From: Acidobacteriaceae bacterium | GTDB lineage: Bacteria > Acidobacteriota > Terriglobia > Terriglobales > Acidobacteriaceae | Direction: 5' to 3' | Length of the DNA stretch: 42,825 bases | NCBI GenBank assembly: GCA_003134435.1 | Contig: PLBE01000220.1 | Span: 1-42,825 of the forward strand | Shown: positions 5,501 through 39,449 of the stretch, piece by piece | Position numbering within the stretch: position 1 is the stretch's first letter | Layout: each line of letters opens with the position of its first letter | Made by a program: the position numbers and the translations under genes | Notes under the pieces: generated by a model | What the model saw: the letters and a program-made list of their open reading frames with translations, nothing else | What the model was told of the DNA's origin: nothing | Databases searched by the model: none

Positions 5501-6832
5501 TCAATGCTTCAATATTAGATCGTTCTTGAATACCTTGCCGTCCTTCATCACAAATCCGACATTCTCCAGAACCTTGATGTTCGCCAGCGGATCGCCCGAA
5601 ACCGCGACCACATCGGCATACGCGCCCGGCGCCACCACGCCCAACCGCCCCTTCATCTCCACCAGTTCCGCCGCCCGCGAGGTCGCCGCCTGGATCGCCT
5701 GCATCGGCGTCATCCCATACTCCACCATGTGCGGAAACTCCTGCGCGATCGGTTCGCTCCACGGAATTCCCCCAATATCCGTCCCAAAAGCTATCTTCAC
5801 TCCCGCCTTCACCGCCTTGCGAAACGACGCCTCGTGATCCGATGCCCGCTTGCGATCGTGCCGCCCTTCCTCCGTGTCGGCCGGAGACCAGCCATTCAGA
5901 TACGCGCTCAGCGTCGCGCACAACCACGTCCCCTGCCGGATCATCTGCGCAATCTGCGCATCCGTCAGCAACAGGCCATGTTCGATCGAGTCGCATCCGC
6001 CATCCAGCGCCCGCTGCAGCCCTTCTCCGTTGTAAGCGTGGCACGCTACCTTTTTTCCCCAGCCATGCGTCTCGTCCACAATCGCCCGCAGTTCCTCCAC
6101 CGTCAGCGTCGGCTGCGATACCAGGTCGCCATTCCCGTCCACCCACGACCGATGCGTCATATACACCTTGATCCAGTCCGCCCCGTGGTCAAGTTGCTGC
6201 CGTGCCGCTTTGCGCGCCTCAACCGGTCCGTCAATCACCTGCACCCCCTTCGGTACCTCGATCTCCGGCGCATAGCCTTCCAGCGGATACCCGCCGGTGG
6301 TCGAAATCGCGCGCGTCGACACAAACAGCCGCGGTCCCGGAATATATCCGCCTTCGATCGCCTCCTTGATCCCCACATCGCCGTAGCCCGCGCCTTCCGT
6401 TTCCATGTCGCGCAAGGTCGTGAACCCTTGTTCCAGCGCCCGCCGCACCGAAACCGTCGCCCGCGCCGCCCGAAACGCCAGCGGATACTTCAGCAACTGA
6501 ATGTCGTATCCCCCCTCGGCCGGATCTTCCCCTTGCAAAAAAATATGCGTGTGCGCGTCAATCAATCCCGGCAGCACTGTCGCCTGCGAAAGATCGATGA
6601 AGGTTGCGCCCGGAGGAAGGTTCTGGGGAAGAAATCCTCCCGCATCGGCGACGTTGCTAATCACATTTCCGCGAATCGTGATGATCTGATCGCGTCGTGC
6701 GCTGTTGGAGACGCCGTCAATCAGCACTCCCGCCCGAATCACTGTCACCGGTCCGGCCACCACCGCATTTTGCTGAGCCCAGCTCTCCGAAATCAGAAAC
6801 ACTACAATCAGCAGACCAATCCAATGCTTCAC
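5501..6832 (-). CDS. Secreted metal-dependent amidohydrolase
   Basis: This is an amidohydrolase-superfamily enzyme of 443 residues with a signal peptide ending near SESWAQ. The metal ligands are visible: HTH at His94/His96, Lys222 in DWIKVYMTHR (possibly carboxylated), His265 in VACHAYN, His285 in DSIEHGLLL, and Asp352 in FGTDIGG. The layout, with a small N-terminal beta-sandwich around VIRAGVLIDGVS and a TIM barrel, matches the imidazolonepropionase-like/Xaa-Pro dipeptidase branch, many of whose exported members cleave dipeptides or cyclic amides. The substrate cannot be assigned from sequence alone. The start is GTG at 6832, with GGGAGG six bases upstream. A CBS-pair gene follows 29 bases downstream. 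Confidence 0.88.
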   Translation of the reverse strand: MKHWIGLLIVVFLISESWAQQNAVVAGPVTVIRAGVLIDGVSNSARRDQIITIRGNVISNVADAGGFLPQNLPPGATFIDLSQATVLPGLIDAHTHIFLQGEDPAEGGYDIQLLKYPLAFRAARATVSVRRALEQGFTTLRDMETEGAGYGDVGIKEAIEGGYIPGPRLFVSTRAISTTGGYPLEGYAPEIEVPKGVQVIDGPVEARKAARQQLDHGADWIKVYMTHRSWVDGNGDLVSQPTLTVEELRAIVDETHGWGKKVACHAYNGEGLQRALDGGCDSIEHGLLLTDAQIAQMIRQGTWLCATLSAYLNGWSPADTEEGRHDRKRASDHEASFRKAVKAGVKIAFGTDIGGIPWSEPIAQEFPHMVEYGMTPMQAIQAATSRAAELVEMKGRLGVVAPGAYADVVAVSGDPLANIKVLENVGFVMKDGKVFKNDLILKH

Positions 6833-6969
6833 CGTTAACCTCCCGGAAAGGGTGGATTGTACTCCTTGCAGGCTGCGGAAAAACCAGTGCGCGACGGAGC
6901 TCTGCCCCGCTTGGGCGGCCTACAAACTTTTTCCCGCACCTGCAAAGGTCACCGACCAGGCTCAACGGC

Positions 6970-7692
6970 TCACCGCGGAATGCGCAAAACAAAGCCAGCG
7001 GCGCCCACTCCAGCTTGGCCGACGTCGCTCGACAACCCGTCGAACCTGCGATTGAACACCAGCGACGCCCCCGCATTTTCGAGTACTCGGCGCGCAATTG
7101 CAATCCTCACCCGGCGCAAGGTCGAAGCAGAATCGGAAGCCGGCGCCGCGCTCCGTTCACTTCCCCGGCGATCCGGTCCGCCTTCGGCCCGCAGCACCGT
7201 TCCGGCCGGACCCTCCCCGAGCAGGAGCATAACTCTCCCACCCCCCGGCTGCACGTCGACCACGGTTGCGATCAGGTATTGCAACGCCAACCGCAGCCGC
7301 GACTCCGGCAATTGCAGGTTCTCCGCGCACGTGCCCACCAGCCGCAACTCGACCCCACGCACCGCCGCGATCGATGCCAGCTCTTCCACCACACCCCGCA
7401 GCACCGGCGCCAGCGCCGACGAAAAATTTGCCTGCCCGGGTTGCTCGGCGTCCAGATACTCCCGCATCAAACGGACCATCCCAATCACTCTTTCCGTCTG
7501 CTGCAACGCAGCCGCAACGCTCTCCTGCTGCTGCTCGACAACCTCCTTGACCGGTAATTCAAGCGGCAGTTGCAGCGTGAGCTCCAGCGAACAGCGCAAC
7601 CCCGTCAGCGGCTGGCTCATGGAGTGCAACAACTCGCCAAGCACCGCCGAACTCCGCCGCCGCGGCCCAAAACAATGCCCGCTCGCGCTCAT
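6970..7692 (-). CDS. Degenerate soluble histidine kinase-like protein
   Basis: The 240-residue protein has no membrane segment or sensor domain. It starts close to a recognisable dimerisation/phosphoacceptor helix, LLHSMSQPLTGLR, with His23 in the H-box place. The ATPase half is eroded. The N-box region reads RLALQYLIATVVDVQPGG without the usual asparagines, the DxGxG motif is replaced by AEGGPDRRGS, and no GTGLGL lid remains. It ends FVLRIPR, like a kinase C-terminus. Its start overlaps the stop of the OmpR-type regulator by four bases (ATGA), so translation is coupled. It may be a phosphotransfer or phosphatase partner, or an anti-kinase, rather than an active kinase. Sequence inspection could miss a divergent ATP site. 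Confidence 0.72.
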   Translation of the reverse strand: MSASGHCFGPRRRSSAVLGELLHSMSQPLTGLRCSLELTLQLPLELPVKEVVEQQQESVAAALQQTERVIGMVRLMREYLDAEQPGQANFSSALAPVLRGVVEELASIAAVRGVELRLVGTCAENLQLPESRLRLALQYLIATVVDVQPGGGRVMLLLGEGPAGTVLRAEGGPDRRGSERSAAPASDSASTLRRVRIAIARRVLENAGASLVFNRRFDGLSSDVGQAGVGAAGFVLRIPR

Positions 7693-8378
7693 ACCGTTAC
7701 CGATGCCCCTTCTGGAATCATCTGATACCCCACTCCGCGCACCGTGTGTATCAACGAGGGCGAGAACCCGTCGTCCACCTTGCGCCGCAGATAGTTAATG
7801 TAAACATCCACCACGTTGGTAGTGGAATCGAAGGTCAAGTTCCACACGTGTTCAATGATCATCGCTCGCGTCAGCCGCCGTCCCGCATTCCGCATCAGGT
7901 ATTCCAGCAGCGCGAATTCCTTGGTCGTCAATTCAATCGCGCGCCCGCCTCGCGCCACCTTACGCTCCACCCGGTCTAAGCAGAGGTCGCGAACCGTAAG
8001 CACCGATTCCGACGGCAGGTGGCTGCGCCGCAACAACGCCCGTGCCCGCGCGGCCAGTTCCAGAAACGAAAACGGCTTCATCAGATAATCGTCCGCCCCC
8101 GCATCCAGGCACTGCACCCGGTCTTCCACCCGGGTTCGCGCCGTCAGTATCATCACTGGCAGATTCGCCTTGCGCTGCCGCACGCTCTTCAGCACCGACA
8201 ACCCGTCAACCCCGGGCAGATTCAGGTCCAGCACCACCAGGTCGTAATCAACCTCCATCGCCATCGCCCGGCCCTGGTTCCCCTCGTGGGCCATATCCAC
8301 CGCGTGATATTCCGCCTCCAGTCCCTTCCGTATGAAATTGGAAAGTGCCACATCGTCTTCCACAATGAGAATTCTCAT
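7689..8378 (-). CDS. OmpR/PhoB-family response regulator
   Basis: This is a 229-residue transcriptional regulator. An N-terminal receiver domain (about 1-118) has acidic pocket residues Glu7/Asp8/Asp9, phospho-acceptor Asp51 in VVLDLNLPG, Thr in ILTAR and Lys in YLMKPF. A winged-helix OmpR-type DNA-binding domain (about 127-223) contains ELTTKEFALLEYLMRNAGR, TRAMIIEHVWN, VDVYINYLRRKVD and HTVRGVGYQM. All signalling residues are present, so it should be phosphorylatable. The gene precedes a degenerate kinase-like gene with a four-base overlap. The true phosphodonor may therefore be encoded elsewhere. A 209-base gap upstream, after glmM, should hold its promoter. Confidence 0.93.
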   Translation of the reverse strand: MRILIVEDDVALSNFIRKGLEAEYHAVDMAHEGNQGRAMAMEVDYDLVVLDLNLPGVDGLSVLKSVRQRKANLPVMILTARTRVEDRVQCLDAGADDYLMKPFSFLELAARARALLRRSHLPSESVLTVRDLCLDRVERKVARGGRAIELTTKEFALLEYLMRNAGRRLTRAMIIEHVWNLTFDSTTNVVDVYINYLRRKVDDGFSPSLIHTVRGVGYQMIPEGASVTV

Positions 8379-33633: not shown

Positions 33634-34965
33634 GTGCTCGCTGCGGAAAAAAGCGTGGTAGCCCCTCAGGAAATCGTGCAGCGTTTGTTCGACGCCCGCC
33701 GTCGCAGCGACGCGCTTTTCAAGCTGGTCCGCGCTGCATCACTTTATGAACGGCCGATTCCCGAGCGGCACCGCATCGTCTTTTATGTCGGACATCTCGA
33801 AGCCTTTGATTGGAATTTGCTCAGCGAGCGCGCCTTTGGACTGCGGAGCGTCCACCCCGAATATGATCGTCTCTTTGCCTTCGGCATCGATCCGGTTGGC
33901 GGCCAGCTTCCAGCCGATCTGCCGTCTGACTGGCCCTCCCAGGACGCGGTCCGCAATTATGTAAGCGATGTCCGCGGTTCCCTCGACCATCAACTTCAAA
34001 GGATAGCTCTCGATCCCCGCGCAACCGCGAACGGCTTTCCGCTGTCCACTTTGCTCAACGTAGCGGTTGAACATCGGCTGATGCACGTTGAAACGCTCGC
34101 CTACATGCTGCATCACTTGCCGCTCGCTATGAAACTTCAGGAACGCCAGCCACCGACTCTCGACCGCCCGCCCGTCGCCCACGGGATGGCCGCTATTCCC
34201 GCTGGTGTCGCCATCCTCGGCCTCGCGCGCGGCGGCCCAAGTTTTGGTTGGGACAATGAATTTGAAGCCCACGCAGTCGAAGTTCCTGCATTTGAAATCG
34301 ATCGCTACAAAGTTACAAACCGGCAATATCTCGAGTTCATGTCGGACGGCGGCTATCAGACCCGGGAATTTTGGGACGACGAGCACTGGGAGTGGAAGAC
34401 CAGCCATGAAATTTCTCATCCGCTGTTCTGGAAGCGGAGCGGCGCGCACTGGTTTCTCCGCACGATGTTCAACGAAGTACCGCTGCCTGCTGACTGGCCT
34501 GTCTATGTCAGCCACGCCGAGGCCAGCGCTTACGCCCGCTGGGCAGGGAAGTCACTCCCTACCGAAGCGCAGTGGCATCGCGCCGCCTACGGCACCCTGG
34601 ACGGACGATCAAGACCGTACCCGTGGGGCAACCAGCCGCCGGACCCGAGCTTGGGCAACTTCGATTTTCAGCGCTGGGATCCGATGCCAGTGAATTCGTT
34701 TCCAGGCGGCCAGAGCGCTTTCGGCATTCACGATTTATTGGGGAACGGCTGGGAGTGGACGTCCACCGTATTCGCTCCGTTTCCCGGCTTCGAGCCTTTC
34801 CCGTTTTACCCGGGCTACTCCGCCGATTTCTTTGACGGTAAGCATTTCGTAATGCGAGGCGGTTCGCCGCGCACCGCTGCCTGCCTGCTGCGGCCAACCT
34901 TCCGCAACTGGTTTCAGGCCCATTACCAATATGTATACGCGGGTTTCCGCTGCGTAGACCGATGA
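33634..34965 (+). CDS. egtB: Ergothioneine sulfoxide synthase EgtB
   Basis: EgtB is the non-haem iron enzyme that joins a thiol donor to trimethylhistidine using oxygen. The 443-residue protein has an N-terminal DinB-like four-helix domain with iron ligands His54 (YVGHLEAFDW) and His147/His151 in HRLMHVE. A formylglycine-generating-enzyme-like domain follows (about 190-443; FEIDRYKVTNRQYLEF, SLPTEAQWHRAAYG, DLLGNGWEWT, VMRGGSPRT, RPTFRNWFQAHYQYVYAGFRC). The GTG start has GGGAG six bases upstream. egtD follows after 96 bases. No egtA, egtC or egtE is nearby, so the thiol donor may be free cysteine, as described for the Chloracidobacterium EgtB, rather than gamma-glutamylcysteine; this is an inference. 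Confidence 0.9.
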   Translation: MLAAEKSVVAPQEIVQRLFDARRRSDALFKLVRAASLYERPIPERHRIVFYVGHLEAFDWNLLSERAFGLRSVHPEYDRLFAFGIDPVGGQLPADLPSDWPSQDAVRNYVSDVRGSLDHQLQRIALDPRATANGFPLSTLLNVAVEHRLMHVETLAYMLHHLPLAMKLQERQPPTLDRPPVAHGMAAIPAGVAILGLARGGPSFGWDNEFEAHAVEVPAFEIDRYKVTNRQYLEFMSDGGYQTREFWDDEHWEWKTSHEISHPLFWKRSGAHWFLRTMFNEVPLPADWPVYVSHAEASAYARWAGKSLPTEAQWHRAAYGTLDGRSRPYPWGNQPPDPSLGNFDFQRWDPMPVNSFPGGQSAFGIHDLLGNGWEWTSTVFAPFPGFEPFPFYPGYSADFFDGKHFVMRGGSPRTAACLLRPTFRNWFQAHYQYVYAGFRCVDR

Positions 34966-35061: not shown

Positions 35062-36030
35062 ATGCCGATCCGAGCGCTTACCACCAGCCCCCTTTCCGGC
35101 TTCGCCTCCGACGTGCGCGCCGGACTCGCGCGGCCGGCGCAAAAAGAACTCCCCTCCAAGTACTTATACGATAACGTGGGCTCGGCGCTCTTTGAAGTCA
35201 TCAGCCATCTGCCCGAATACGGACTCACGCGAGCCGATGAGCGTTTGCTCCGGCGTCATGCTGGCGACATCGTCAATCGCCTGCCCTCTCCCGTCGCCGT
35301 CGTGGAACTCGGCAGCGGCAGCGGCAGAAAAACCCGCTGCATCCTGGAAGCACTCAGCCGCCGCCAGCTCACATTGTATTATCCGGTCGAAATCTCCCCC
35401 TCGGCACTTGCTGCCTGCGTGCGCGAACTCAGCGACATCAATGCCGTCAGTATCGTAGGTTTTGAGCGCGAATATCTGGATGGCTTGCTGGAGGTGTCCG
35501 CGCGCCGGCAACGCGGGCAACATTTCCTCGTGCTGTTTCTGGGAAGCACGATTGGGAATTTTGATCGCCACGCGAGCGTTGAATTCCTGGCCAAGGTTCG
35601 GCGTACTCTGCGCCCGGGTGACGCCCTCCTTCTGGGCACCGATCTGGAAAAACCAATCGCCCAGCTGCTCCGGGCATACGATGACGAACTGGGAGTGACC
35701 GCCGCTTTCGATCTCAACCTGCTCGCCCGCATCAATCGCGAACTCGACGCCGATTTCGACTTGAGCCAGTTCGCTCATGTCGCCCGCATCAACTACGACG
35801 CCCGCAGCGTCGAAATGCATCTGCGATCCATGCGGCGGCAGACCGTGCGCATTCCCGCTGCCGGCCTGTGTGTCGAGTTCTTGCAGGGAGAGACCATCTG
35901 GACCGAGAGCAGTCATAAGTACTTCGCGGAAGAAATTTTCCCCATGGCGCGCGCTGCCGGCTTCTGCTGCCAGACTCAGTGGATTGACGAGGAGTGGCCT
36001 TTCGCGGAAAATCTGCTGATCGCCGAATAG
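35062..36030 (+). CDS. egtD: L-histidine N-alpha-methyltransferase EgtD
   Basis: EgtD uses three S-adenosylmethionine molecules to make hercynine (trimethylhistidine), the EgtB substrate. The 322-residue protein shows the family's signature phrases in order: KYLYDNVGSALFEVISHLPEYGLTRAD, the SAM-binding VELGSGSGRKTR (about 81-92), LYYPVEISPSAL, LVLFLGSTIGNFDR, LRPGDALLLGTDLEK, YDARSVEMHL and IWTESSHKY. Length is normal. AAGGA eight bases upstream fixes the start. It follows egtB and is 40 bases from the UBP zinc-finger gene, so it probably shares a transcript with the redox-signalling genes downstream. Ergothioneine is a low-molecular-weight thiol protectant. Confidence 0.95.
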   Translation: MPIRALTTSPLSGFASDVRAGLARPAQKELPSKYLYDNVGSALFEVISHLPEYGLTRADERLLRRHAGDIVNRLPSPVAVVELGSGSGRKTRCILEALSRRQLTLYYPVEISPSALAACVRELSDINAVSIVGFEREYLDGLLEVSARRQRGQHFLVLFLGSTIGNFDRHASVEFLAKVRRTLRPGDALLLGTDLEKPIAQLLRAYDDELGVTAAFDLNLLARINRELDADFDLSQFAHVARINYDARSVEMHLRSMRRQTVRIPAAGLCVEFLQGETIWTESSHKYFAEEIFPMARAAGFCCQTQWIDEEWPFAENLLIAE

Positions 36031-36070
36031 TTCTGTGATCCCTTTACTTGCAAAACCGCCGGAGGAATCG

Positions 36071-36343
36071 ATGCCCGAACAATGCTCTCACCTCGATCAA
36101 ATCAAAGTACGGCAAACCAACAAACATGTCTGTGAAGAATGCGTCGAGCTTGGCGATACCTGGGTTCATCTCCGCATGTGCCTCGTCTGCGGCCAGGTTG
36201 GCTGTTGCGACTCCTCCAGGAACAAACACGCCACCAGGCATTTCCACCGCACCAAACATCCGCTGATGCGCTCCATCGAACCGGGAGAAAGCTGGATCTG
36301 GTGCTATGTCGATGAGATCGAGGCCGGCGAACTGGCCGCCTGA
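36071..36343 (+). CDS. UBP-type zinc-finger protein, 90 aa
   Basis: The 90-residue protein is a single ZnF-UBP domain. Its ligands are in the usual order: Cys5 and His7, CEEC (Cys21/Cys24), CLVC (Cys37/Cys40), Cys45, then the histidine series HATRHFHRTKH (His53, His57/59, His63). In eukaryotes the fold binds free ubiquitin C-termini. Bacteria lack ubiquitin, so here it must bind something else, perhaps a C-terminal tail or a nucleic acid. The ATG at 36071 has GGAGG close upstream, which favours it over a start 36 bases earlier. It stands between egtD and the receiver/thioredoxin-reductase-like fusion gene, 46 bases before the latter, and is likely part of that module. Confidence 0.88.
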   Translation: MPEQCSHLDQIKVRQTNKHVCEECVELGDTWVHLRMCLVCGQVGCCDSSRNKHATRHFHRTKHPLMRSIEPGESWIWCYVDEIEAGELAA

Positions 36344-36389: not shown

Positions 36390-38060
36390 ATGCCGAAACC
36401 TATTCTACTGAGTGTCGATGACGATTCCGATGTCTTGCGCGCCATCGAGCGCGACTTGCGCTCGCAGTACGGCGCGGAATACCGCGTCATCGGCAGCGAT
36501 TCTCCCGAGGCCGCGCTGGAGATTTTGAAGCAGCTCAAGTTGCGCAACGACAGCGTCGCCCTCTTGCTCGCCGACCAGCGCATGCCCCGCATGGATGGAG
36601 TCACATTCCTCCAGGAAGCGATGCACGTCTATCCCGAGGCGAAGCGCGCGCTGCTCACCGCATACGCCGACACCAATGCCGCTATCAGTGCCATCAATCA
36701 GGCCAACATCAACTATTTTTTCTTGAAGCCGTGGGACCCGCCCGCCGATCATCTTTATCCCCAACTCAACGACTTGCTCGACGACTGGCAAGCCTCCTAC
36801 CGTCCAGCCTTCCAGGGCATCCGCGTCCTCGGTACCCGCTGGTCGCCACGGTCCTATGAACTCCGCGACTTCCTGGCGCGCAATCGTGTCCCCTATCAAT
36901 GGATCGACGTGGAATCCTCCGCCAACGACTCCGAAACCAAGCGTCTCCTCGAGGCCCTGGGAGAAGAAGCCGCCAGTCTTCCCGTCGTGCTCTTTCCCGA
37001 CGGTACCAAGCTTCTGGAGAGCCTCCCCGCCGACGTCGCCCAAAAGGTCGGGTTGCGCACCCGCGCTCAAACCGACTTTTACGATTTGGCCATCGTGGGC
37101 GGTGGCCCCGCCGGTCTCGCCGCCGCCGTTTATGGCGCGTCCGAGGGGCTGCACACCGTCATGATCGAACGCGAAGCTCCGGGCGGCCAGGCGGGCATGA
37201 GTTCACGCATCGAGAACTATCTCGGATTTCCCGTCGGCCTCAGCGGTAACGATCTCGCCCGCCGAGCCGTGGCGCAGGCCCAGCGCTTCGGCGTCGAGAT
37301 TCTGTCTCCTCAGGAAGCCGTCGGCATTCGCACCGAAGGATCGTATCGCATGATCAAGTTGGCCGACGGCAATGAGATCTCCTGCCACGCGCTCATGATT
37401 GCCAGCGGCGTCCAGTGGCGCCGCCTCGATGCGCCCGGAATTGATCGACTCCAGGGCGCGGGAGTCTACTACGGCGGTGGCGCGACCGAAGCACTGGCCT
37501 GCAAGGGTGAAATCATCTACGTCATCGGTGGCGCAAATTCAGCCGGTCAAGCCGCCATGAACTTCGCCCGCTATGCCGAACGCGTTGTCATGGTCGTGCG
37601 CGGCGATTCTCTGGCCAGCACCATGTCGCAATATCTGATCGAACAGATCAAAGAGACCCCCAACATTCGCGTGTGGCCCCATGCCAGTGTGGTCGAAGTC
37701 CATGGCAATACCCGTCTGGAAGAAATTTCCGTGCTTTGTTCCGACACCAATACCGTCGAGCGCGTGCCCGCAAGTTCCATCTTCATTTTTATTGGGGCCT
37801 TGCCGCGCACGGACTGGCTCGGCGATCTCGTCGAGCGCGACGAACGGGGCTTTATTCTGACTGGATCCGACCTTATCCACGACGGGCAACGGCCTAAGGG
37901 CTGGACCCTCGACCGCGATCCCTTCCTCCTCGAAACCAATATTCCCGGCATCTTTGCCGTGGGCGATGTACGCCATGGTTCGGTGAAACGCGTGGCTTCA
38001 AGCGTGGGCGAAGGATCGGTCGCGGTCCAGTTCATCCATCAGTACTTGAGCAAGGTATAA
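36390..38060 (+). CDS. Receiver-glutaredoxin-thioredoxin reductase-like fusion lacking redox cysteines
   Basis: The 556-residue protein has three parts. Residues 1-130 are a receiver with Asp10-12, phospho-acceptor Asp62 (LLLADQRMPRMDG), Thr90 and Lys113. Residues 143-222 are a glutaredoxin-like fold whose CPxC is SPRS (152-155), with the cis-proline loop SLPVV kept. Residues 228-556 resemble thioredoxin reductase: FAD motif VGGGPAGLAAAVYGA, GGQAG...IENYLGFP, nucleotide motif VIGGANSAGQAAMNFA and the FAD-closing IFAVGDVRHG. The catalytic CATC position reads GGGA (362-365); a single Cys371 is nearby. It cannot run normal CxxC chemistry, so NAD(P)H/FAD sensing or another flavin reaction is inferred. 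Databases label relatives as fused response regulator/thioredoxin-disulfide reductase. The kinase gene starts nine bases on. Confidence 0.9.
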   Translation: MPKPILLSVDDDSDVLRAIERDLRSQYGAEYRVIGSDSPEAALEILKQLKLRNDSVALLLADQRMPRMDGVTFLQEAMHVYPEAKRALLTAYADTNAAISAINQANINYFFLKPWDPPADHLYPQLNDLLDDWQASYRPAFQGIRVLGTRWSPRSYELRDFLARNRVPYQWIDVESSANDSETKRLLEALGEEAASLPVVLFPDGTKLLESLPADVAQKVGLRTRAQTDFYDLAIVGGGPAGLAAAVYGASEGLHTVMIEREAPGGQAGMSSRIENYLGFPVGLSGNDLARRAVAQAQRFGVEILSPQEAVGIRTEGSYRMIKLADGNEISCHALMIASGVQWRRLDAPGIDRLQGAGVYYGGGATEALACKGEIIYVIGGANSAGQAAMNFARYAERVVMVVRGDSLASTMSQYLIEQIKETPNIRVWPHASVVEVHGNTRLEEISVLCSDTNTVERVPASSIFIFIGALPRTDWLGDLVERDERGFILTGSDLIHDGQRPKGWTLDRDPFLLETNIPGIFAVGDVRHGSVKRVASSVGEGSVAVQFIHQYLSKV

Positions 38061-38069
38061 ATGATATAA

Positions 38070-39449
38070 ATGGTCGACAATTCAGAACTGCTTCAAGTCC
38101 CGGTGTTCGCGGATCTGCCCGGCGATCAGATCGCCTGGTTCATCAGCCAAGCGCAGGAGTCTTTTTATAAGGCCGGCGACGTCTACTCCCGCCAGGGCGA
38201 TCCCGCCGACGCCATGTTCGTCATCCTCGCCGGTCAGATTGAGATGCGCGGGGAGTTGGGCGGCGAAACCATCGCCATTCCCTTGAAGGCCGGCGACGTC
38301 ACCGGAGCCCTCCCGTTTTCGCGCATGAAGAAGTTCACCGTCACCGGACGGGCCGTCACCGACAGCCACGTCTTGCGATTTCCAGCCGCTCTGTTTCCTG
38401 ATCTTGTCCAGAAGATGCCGGAGTTGGCTCAGCGCCTGGTCGGCCTCATGTCCGACCGGATTCGCGAAACCACTCGCATCGAGCAGCAGCGAGATCGCTT
38501 GGCCGCTTTGGGTAAACTTTCCGCCGGCCTCGCCCATGAGCTCAACAATCCTGCTTCGGCCGCCAAACGCGCCACCAGCCAGTTGCGCGATATCCTCAAG
38601 AAGATCAAGGACGCCAGTCTCGAACTCGGCCGGCGTGATCTCACTCCCGCCCAGAAAGCCGAAATCGAGAAACTCGAGACCACCCTCATCCAGCGCGACG
38701 ACCCCCCGCCGGACCCGCTCACCGTCAGCGACCTCGAGGAGCAGGTTGATTCCCTCTTGCGCAGTCACGGACAGAACGACTTATGGCAACTGGCCGCCGA
38801 CTTGGCGCGCAAGAACGCCAAGCCCGCTGTGCTGGAATCGTTGTTCGCCGCCCTCGACCCTGACACCGCCCGAGCCGCTCTCGTCCGCATCGGCGCCTCT
38901 CTTGAAATTGCCAGCCTGCTCGACGAAATCGAGAGTAGCACCTCGCGTATTTCCGATTTGGTCGGCGCCATCAAAGAGTACACCCACATGGACCAGGCAC
39001 CGGTGCTGAACGTCGATATCGTGAAGAGCCTTGAAACCACCCTGATCATACTGAACCACAAGCTCAAACGCGGCGTCGCCGTGCTGCGCGATTATCAGGG
39101 TATTCCGCTCCTCGTGAATTCCTTCGGCAGCGAACTCAATCAGGTCTGGACCAATATCATCGACAATGCCATCGACGCCATGGCCGGCAAGGGTGAGCTT
39201 CGGTTGCGAACCTACCGCGACAATGATTGCGCGGTCGTCGAGATCGGCGATAACGGCCCTGGAATTTCACCCGAGGTTAGGCCCCACATCTTCGAGCCAT
39301 TCTTCACCACCAAGGGCGTAGGCGAGGGCACCGGCCTGGGTTTGGACACGGTGCAGCGCATTGTGAAGAAACACCGAGGCAGTATTCAAGTCACTTCCAA
39401 ACCCGGCGACACCCGCTTTCAAATCTGGCTCCCGCTCGCGGAAGCCTAG
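38070..39449 (+). CDS. Histidine kinase with N-terminal cyclic-nucleotide-binding domain
   Basis: The 459-residue soluble kinase begins with a cNMP-binding/CRP-like barrel (about 8-125; FYKAGDVYSRQGDPADAMFVILAGQIEMRG). A linker helix precedes the H-box GLAHELNNPASAAKRA (His156). About 120 residues with predicted coiled-coil and helical character (170-290) separate the H-box from SSTSRISDLVGAIKEYTHMD, much more than in ordinary kinases. The ATPase is complete: NQVWTNIIDNAIDAM, IGDNGPGISPE, FEPFFTTK and GEGTGLGL. It lies nine bases after the receiver/flavoprotein gene, so its phosphoryl target is very likely that protein's Asp62. The barrel lacks an obvious RxA phosphate-binding cassette, so true cyclic-nucleotide binding is uncertain. 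Confidence 0.92.
   Translation: MVDNSELLQVPVFADLPGDQIAWFISQAQESFYKAGDVYSRQGDPADAMFVILAGQIEMRGELGGETIAIPLKAGDVTGALPFSRMKKFTVTGRAVTDSHVLRFPAALFPDLVQKMPELAQRLVGLMSDRIRETTRIEQQRDRLAALGKLSAGLAHELNNPASAAKRATSQLRDILKKIKDASLELGRRDLTPAQKAEIEKLETTLIQRDDPPPDPLTVSDLEEQVDSLLRSHGQNDLWQLAADLARKNAKPAVLESLFAALDPDTARAALVRIGASLEIASLLDEIESSTSRISDLVGAIKEYTHMDQAPVLNVDIVKSLETTLIILNHKLKRGVAVLRDYQGIPLLVNSFGSELNQVWTNIIDNAIDAMAGKGELRLRTYRDNDCAVVEIGDNGPGISPEVRPHIFEPFFTTKGVGEGTGLGLDTVQRIVKKHRGSIQVTSKPGDTRFQIWLPLAEA

Follow-up and report, generated by a model that had tools for sequence, protein, structure and literature searches.

Most response regulators have DNA, cyclic dinucleotides or partner proteins as their targets. 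Within the thioredoxin-reductase fold, the ferredoxin-NADP reductase type and YpdA/Bdr are known as enzymes without CxxC, and they are not known to carry an N-terminal regulator or a pseudo-glutaredoxin. Bacillithiol disulfide reductase is thought to reduce its disulfide directly or through one Cys. AhpF, according to a passage of PMC8945050, retains two Cys in each of its parts. In the cyanobacterial enzymes DDOR and FFTR, as described in part of PMC9025218, the CxxC is kept and the NADPH site is absent. Response regulators that join a receiver (REC) domain to a thioredoxin reductase are mentioned for unfinished archaeal metagenomes in a passage of PMC5847659. Here we describe a three-domain protein encoded in a 42,825-nucleotide stretch of an Acidobacteriaceae bacterium (contig PLBE01000220.1 of GCA_003134435.1), the whole of which we call the window. 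A receiver is followed by a pseudo-glutaredoxin and by a thioredoxin-reductase-like FAD/NAD(P)H core, and the CxxC is gone from both redox domains. This double loss is a family trait across the sampled relatives, beyond chance. Our best reading, to which we give a probability of about 0.6, is an NAD(P)H flavoenzyme that is gated by phosphorylation and has a non-CxxC acceptor.

The receiver matches Response_reg in Pfam over residues 7-117 (49.1 bits, cut-off 30.2). Residues D10, D11, D62, T90 and K113 are all present, and each is kept in 97 of 102 homologues, the remainder being gaps or one change.

The middle domain, of about 85 residues, receives no Glutaredoxin call from Pfam (E <= 0.001) in the window protein. 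When its profile is aligned by hhalign with the glutaredoxin domains of eleven relatives that keep CATC in the reductase part, the probability is 99.8 (E 1.5e-29), and all four of those eleven that were scanned (L206, L174, L207, L214) are Glutaredoxin-positive in Pfam. The first-ranked match in a PDB profile search is 2lqo, “putative glutaredoxin Rv3198.1” (E 3e-8), which the structure library titles “Mrx1 reduced”. An AF2 model of the domain alone (pLDDT 83.5) has a glutaredoxin as its first-ranked Foldseek match, with a TM of 0.73. By fold and by sequence kinship this domain is a glutaredoxin. Its CPxC site is occupied by SPRS (within WSPRS; residues 152-155, positions 36843-36854).

The C-terminal core matches Pyr_redox_2 over residues 231-542 (121.9 bits in Pfam). 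The FAD motifs GGGPAG (237-242), GGQ (265-267) and GDVR (525-528) are intact, as is the NAD(P)H motif GGANSAGQ, and the CATC position reads GGGA.

Homologues were collected from a search of a contig collection (80 loci), from 149 genomes of Acidobacteriota, the window's phylum (matches at E <= 1e-60 in 28), from 246 genomes of Actinomycetota, the phylum of Rubrobacter (68 matching at E <= 1e-50), and from a cyanobacterial sample of 146 genomes, named for the phylum of the genome holding the Chlorogloeopsis locus. The genomes or records behind some loci were added, together with five of 136 matching plasmid records. After removal of 12 identical sequences, 207 distinct open reading frames (ORFs) were left, including the window copy, and 203 of these are full length, four being fragments. 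The homologue in records L067/L068 (5845-7667) is broken across two overlapping frames, through a frameshift or an assembly error.

The family is present in about one fifth of the genomes of both phyla (27/149 in Acidobacteriota; 51/246, by score, in Actinomycetota) and in the 9 matching genomes out of 146 in the cyanobacterial sample. One Acidobacteriota genome, G015, was kept out of the count because its match, L174, retains CATC. For Actinomycetota, the criterion was a match at E <= 1e-70 that also has G370, and the CATC site was read in part of the 51 genomes.

When the 203 full-length ORFs (the window copy among them) are read at the four CATC columns, 184 are free of Cys in all four and the remaining 19 retain the CxxC as C[AS][TS]C. 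The motif NS[AV]GQ follows the same division, with 183 of the 184 Cys-free ORFs having it (the exception, L151, reads NAAGQ) versus none of the 19 CATC forms. A canonical receiver is found in 133 of the Cys-free ORFs. In these intact-receiver members, residue 152 is S in 131, T in one and D in one, and never Cys; at residue 155, 106 have S and nine have C. A first-pass annotation of this DNA had described both CxxC sites as lost, the phosphorylation residues of the receiver as all kept and the FAD and NAD(P)H motifs as surviving. The window ORF bears this out. It had also held that homologues widely keeping CxxC would overturn its view, and in the alignment the close homologues do not keep it at either position.

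Other cysteines were considered as well. C371 is present in 117 of the 133 intact-receiver members, C332 in 99 and both in 92, which rules out Cys371 and Cys332 as a conserved pair replacing the CxxC.

We built a maximum-likelihood tree of the cores (97 rows thinned by identity, midpoint root only). In this tree, 78 Cys-free rows are split from the rest by a 100/100 branch, the eleven CATC fusions that carry a glutaredoxin domain (L174, L206-L214, L219) group together with 99/96 support, and a further clade, at 100/100, holds eight plain thioredoxin reductases. The glutaredoxin part retains a CxxC in ten of the eleven, L214 reading CPDS. These fusions look ancestral, so both dithiols were probably lost on the one stem of the family; the simplest reading is that a glutaredoxin-thioredoxin reductase fusion came first. 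L174 combines WCPDC, CATC and part of the family insertion, as would an intermediate. With the mycoredoxin model (cut-off 89.5 bits), L207 of the CATC group scores 76.6 bits and the Cys-free receiver-type L154 scores 46.4 bits. The eleven mycoredoxin-like/low-Mr thioredoxin reductase fusions are, in themselves, a small analogue of thioredoxin-glutathione reductase.

The Cys-free cores have gained conserved residues of their own. Conservation was counted in 202 of the 203 ORFs (132 intact-receiver, 51 other Cys-free and 19 CATC forms), one short core being dropped. At nineteen positions, 93% or more of the 183 Cys-free cores agree on a residue that no more than two of the 19 CATC forms share. 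R534 and Q387 are found in 183/183, where the CATC forms have Q (19/19) and E (17/19), respectively; A388 is found in 177/183 (E in 19/19 CATC forms), Y415 in 183/183, S251 in 182/183 (R in 19/19) and H550 in 182/183. L278 (P in 19/19 CATC forms), E367 (D in 18/19) and W476 belong to the same set. Within the insertion, R509 is conserved in 174/183 and P511 in 172/183; the R509 column is a gap in all 19 CATC forms and, of the CATC forms displayed, L174 alone has part of the insertion. To judge from the alignment, this pattern looks like a changed active site, not decay.

As for regulation, the gene is followed by a histidine kinase gene (Table 1). We scored a kinase as adjacent when it was on the same strand and no more than 500 nt away, in loci with at least 800 nt downstream. 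It adjoins intact-receiver members in 115 of 125 loci, 112 times downstream and three times upstream (L106, L107, L108), versus 3 of 50 loci for forms without an intact receiver (L088, L151, L093) and 0 of 18 for CATC forms. These three exceptions are all copies of the receiver type. Two of them, L088 and L151, begin at the edge of a contig; the third, L093 / L231 (about 6689-7936, minus strand), 86% like the window protein, has lost its receiver mid-contig and kept the adjacent kinase. In 17 Acidobacteriota genomes with longer flanks, a set overlapping the previous one, a kinase is found beside 17/17, upstream in L244 and L245. The pairing of kinase and flavoprotein is probable from this adjacency.

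The kinase carries an N-terminal cyclic nucleotide (cNMP)-binding-like domain, and 138 of 142 kinase homologues above 150 bits match through this domain. In the window kinase it seems to be without R-S/T-A, the usual cAMP-binding motif, and its ligand may be other than cAMP. The fused cNMP-like domains described below likewise seem, by eye, to be without it. PADLOC gave no match for the flavoprotein or the zinc finger encoded before it, and weak matches only on the cNMP-like part of the kinase.

Furthermore, the N-terminal regulator is exchangeable. A cNMP_binding domain is fused directly to the pseudo-glutaredoxin/flavin core in six of ten relatives scanned; of the other four, L123 and L187 have a sub-cut-off receiver, L192 has no regulator match and L206 is a CATC form. 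A 16-member Cys-free clade has decayed receivers (L123, L173, L184, L186, L188-L194, L196, L198, L201, L202, L204), and no kinase was found near it in the neighbourhood scan of the loci. One kind of input thus seems to reach the core by either of two routes, a phospho-receiver in trans or a cNMP-like domain in cis. A regulator-free member, L114:3745-6281, adjoins two DsbA-like genes on a Gloeocapsa plasmid, and L113, L163 and L172 are regulator-free forms like it.

The exchangeable regulators, together with the neighbouring kinase, favour the flavin core as a regulated output over a sensor. The first-pass annotation had left the choice open, as a “sensor or output domain switched by phosphorylation”; domain swapping and the adjacent kinase tilt it towards output, and we infer the switching itself, as we do FAD and NAD(P)H binding, phosphorylation and turnover. 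In the phospho-gated flavoenzyme that we propose, the output of a response regulator would be a thioredoxin-reductase-fold enzyme stripped of its thiol relay. The cNMP-like-domain kinase would sense a ligand and phosphorylate D62, and the phosphorylated receiver would shift the seating of the pseudo-glutaredoxin against the flavin domain. Depending on this shift, hydride would or would not pass from NAD(P)H to FAD and then straight to an acceptor, bypassing a CxxC dithiol. From the gene context, the acceptor might be a low-molecular-weight thiol, a thiohistidine product or something that the UBP zinc-finger protein presents.

Alternatively, the flavoprotein could be an input module, an NAD(P)H or redox sensor whose flavin or nucleotide state alters phosphorylation of the receiver by the kinase. 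The lack of a conserved thiol exit site would suit such a sensor, and receiver-linked domains can serve as input, as a passage of PMC5847659 notes for archaeal receivers. We consider it unlikely: cNMP-like domains and kinase-less decayed receivers are also found fused to this core, which in some members stands without a regulator, and this fits a regulated output better; the newly conserved residues suggest a specific chemistry.

The genes upstream bring in a second alternative. The window has the order EgtB-like, EgtD, UBP zinc finger, flavoprotein and kinase, all on the plus strand and with short gaps. The EgtB/OvoA/SenA-like enzyme beside EgtD would make some thio- or selenohistidine. We counted co-occurrence as raw numbers of genomes, which ignore phylogeny and genome size. 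The zinc finger is present in 41 of the 51 Actinomycetota genomes with the flavoprotein versus 15 of 195 without, and in none of 17 Actinomycetota genomes having only lower-scoring (E > 1e-70), CATC-type matches. In Acidobacteriota the figures are 20/27 with and 8/122 without and, outside the window's own family, 8/14 versus 8/120. Among the 56 receiver-type loci that have 2.5 kb of flank on either side, 19 have a zinc finger nearby. For EgtD, the counts in Acidobacteriota are 25/27 with the flavoprotein and 33/122 without (12/14 versus 33/120 outside the window's own family), and the link is weak in Actinomycetota (25/51 versus 42/195). As a control, the odds ratio in the same 246 Actinomycetota genomes is 49 for the zinc finger versus 3.5 for EgtD. 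In the open-access literature, a search for the zinc finger together with other terms found no paper on the role of this bacterial UBP zinc-finger family.

The second alternative is a thiol-system reductase without CxxC, in which the flavin would reduce a low-molecular-weight disulfide or thiohistidine product directly, or via Cys371 or Cys332, with the pseudo-glutaredoxin as substrate-binding domain. It would agree with the apparent descent from mycoredoxin-like and thioredoxin-reductase fusions and with the frequency of C371. EgtB/EgtD adjoin 10 of these 56 receiver-type loci with 2.5-kb flanks and, with the zinc finger between, the cNMP-type members L246 and L247 in Acidobacteriota, and trxA adjoins cNMP-type members on two actinobacterial plasmids. 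On the other hand, C371 is absent in 16/133 intact-receiver members, C332 and C371 stand together in only 92 of them, residue 152 is a Cys in 0/133, and the EgtD link is weak in Actinomycetota. We regard this reductase as improbable. Ergothioneine as a general substrate is weakened by the same Actinomycetota counts and by the small number of receiver-type loci with EgtB/EgtD nearby.

On the plasmids, the order cbpM-clpB-trxA-UBP-flavoprotein is found in Streptomyces and Rhodococcus, with cNMP-type members. Clusters of clpB, trxA, the UBP zinc finger and the cNMP flavoprotein, in this order on plasmids of actinobacteria (L225:174-5302, L226:186-5242), resemble a stress-tolerance island.

Purifying selection acts on all three domains. 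The ratio of nonsynonymous to synonymous substitution rates (dN/dS) of the window gene against L011 or L012 is 0.03-0.05 in each domain, and four further comparisons give 0.02-0.06 wherever dS was computable; these values are rough, with dS at about 1 or higher and saturated in several pairs. A quirk or pseudogene of one genome is ruled out by the low dN/dS and the number of Cys-free ORFs. A catalytically dead scaffold, in which a pseudoenzyme with structural FAD would make protein-protein contacts under phosphorylation control, could account for the loss of both electron relays, but is very unlikely given a flavin-domain dN/dS of 0.04-0.06 across six comparisons and the identity, in 183/183 Cys-free cores, of the nucleotide-region residues R404, G380, N383, G386 and Q387 and of the FAD-site residues G237, G239, P240, G242, G265-Q267, G525 and D526.

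The full-length AF2 model (pLDDT 88.7, pTM 0.79) has the thioredoxin-reductase fold over residues 227-556. The nearest structure is 5mh4, titled FR (flavin-reducing), with a VIA-align Z of 35.0 and a root-mean-square deviation (rmsd) of 1.8 over 301 residues; 5mjk_A, the same enzyme titled FO conformation, lies farther away (rmsd 7.6). The FR-like conformer would fit our proposal, because an enzyme without CATC needs no flavin-oxidising state.

Several points weigh against a phospho-gated flavoenzyme with a non-CxxC acceptor. The choice of an AF2 conformer in this fold is weak evidence, and conserved NAD(P)H and FAD motifs, as features of sequence, fall short of proving turnover. Ten of the 125 intact-receiver loci have no same-strand adjacent kinase; each of these is either cyanobacterial or a member of the cyanobacterial sample. 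Lastly, trxA adjoins some cNMP-type members (trxA-UBP-cNMP flavoprotein), and two more cNMP-type loci have a TrxA-like neighbour, which would suit a disulfide-linked role.

More broadly, and only tentatively, these proteins could be a widespread signal-gated flavoenzyme family that descended from a mycoredoxin-thioredoxin reductase through the loss of both dithiols on a single stem and a rewiring towards a new, non-CxxC acceptor. Its core could be joined either to a kinase-receiver pair or to a cNMP-like domain in cis, and would form one redox signalling module with the UBP zinc finger and, in Acidobacteriota, with thiohistidine synthesis. If a receiver does gate a pyridine-nucleotide flavoenzyme directly, a single step would put redox metabolism under the command of a kinase. 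The family is a clean case in which to study how an electron-transfer chain is re-purposed, since two dithiols acting in series were lost together and relatives that have the cysteines survive. For the bacterial UBP protein family, the association with the flavoprotein suggests a partner that can be tested.

Table 1. Coordinates of the flavoprotein gene, its domains and sites, and the neighbouring genes in the window.
Feature	Position	Strand	Details
Flavoprotein ORF	36390-38060	+	556 aa, ATG start
Receiver (REC) domain	36390..36749	+	residues 1-120; phospho-acceptor D62 at 36573-36575
Pseudo-glutaredoxin (mycoredoxin-like) domain	36813..37055	+	residues 142-222; hhalign, PDB profile match, AF2 and Foldseek
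Low-Mr thioredoxin-reductase-fold FAD/NAD(P)H domain	37074..38057	+	residues 229-556; Pfam and structural match
GGGA in CATC position	37473..37484	+	residues 362-365, within GVYYGGGATEALACKG
Cys371	37500..37502	+	C in 117/133 intact-receiver members; often, not always, conserved
Family-specific insertion, ~20 aa	37869..37931	+	about residues 494-514, DLIHDGQRPKGWTLDRDPFLL
Histidine kinase with N-terminal cNMP-binding-like domain; probable cognate kinase	38070..39449	+	Pfam cNMP_binding 50.9, HATPase_c 92.9 bits
Stand-alone UBP-type zinc-finger protein; candidate partner	36035..36343	+	102 aa; Pfam zf-UBP 53.7 bits
EgtD-type histidine methyltransferase, upstream	35062..36030	+	NCBIfam TIGR03438 297.3 bits, cut-off 290.9
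EgtB/OvoA/SenA-type enzyme	33634..34965	+	NCBIfam OvoA_Nterm 276.5, EgtB 261.3, SenA 252.1 bits, all sub-cut-off

When compared to known systems, the window protein has the low-Mr thioredoxin-reductase fold with its FAD/NAD(P)H motifs, and shares with TrxB (TIGR01292) the fold along the whole core and the FAD and nucleotide motifs. It differs in having no CATC and in the insertion of about 20 aa, and the family changes E-E to Q-A and Q to R beside the cofactor motifs. The CxxC that defines a thioredoxin-disulfide reductase in the NADPH domain is GGGA here, and the TIGR01292 score is 209.3 bits, against a cut-off of 343.45 (204-222 bits in four Cys-free relatives). As far as a CxxC disulfide reductase is concerned, this agrees with the first-pass annotation, which had inferred that the protein is no disulfide reductase and distrusted the label of its relatives. 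Relatives are labelled “cyclic nucleotide-binding domain-containing thioredoxin-disulfide reductase” in the database; this label is doubtful, some family members being named for an activity whose catalytic cysteines they do not have.

AhpF-like organisation is only partly shared. AhpF also joins an N-terminal thioredoxin-fold domain to a thioredoxin-reductase-like core, but it has both Cys pairs and the window family neither; with SPRS and GGGA at these sites, the window protein reaches 170.9 bits in the AhpF model (TIGR03140, cut-off 502.9). The nucleophilic Cys of glutaredoxins and mycoredoxins (CPxC or CxxS) is replaced by S152. The CATC glutaredoxin fusions have the same two-domain core and are the nearest Cys-bearing relatives in the sample, but they keep C-A-T/S-C in the reductase part and have no receiver. 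The ferredoxin-NADP reductase and YpdA types share the fold (8c16_B, Z 28.7; 7a7b_A, Z 27.1), and the window protein is far from YpdA by its model (TIGR04018, 57.7 bits, cut-off 339.9).

Finally, the intact receiver residues and the adjacent kinase gene place the protein among two-component response regulators, the pairing being taken from adjacency. The first-pass annotation had gone further and spoken of a new kind of response-regulator output, which is overstated: relatives of the fold without CxxC are known, and the archaeal REC-thioredoxin reductases share the pairing of receiver and reductase, the passage that mentions them (PMC5847659) being silent on CxxC. In the open-access literature, judged by titles and the first lines of abstracts, we found no paper on this flavoprotein family or on its family-wide double dithiol loss. 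DDOR and FFTR are, likewise, thioredoxin-reductase relatives with altered wiring, and their pattern is the reverse of that seen in the window family.

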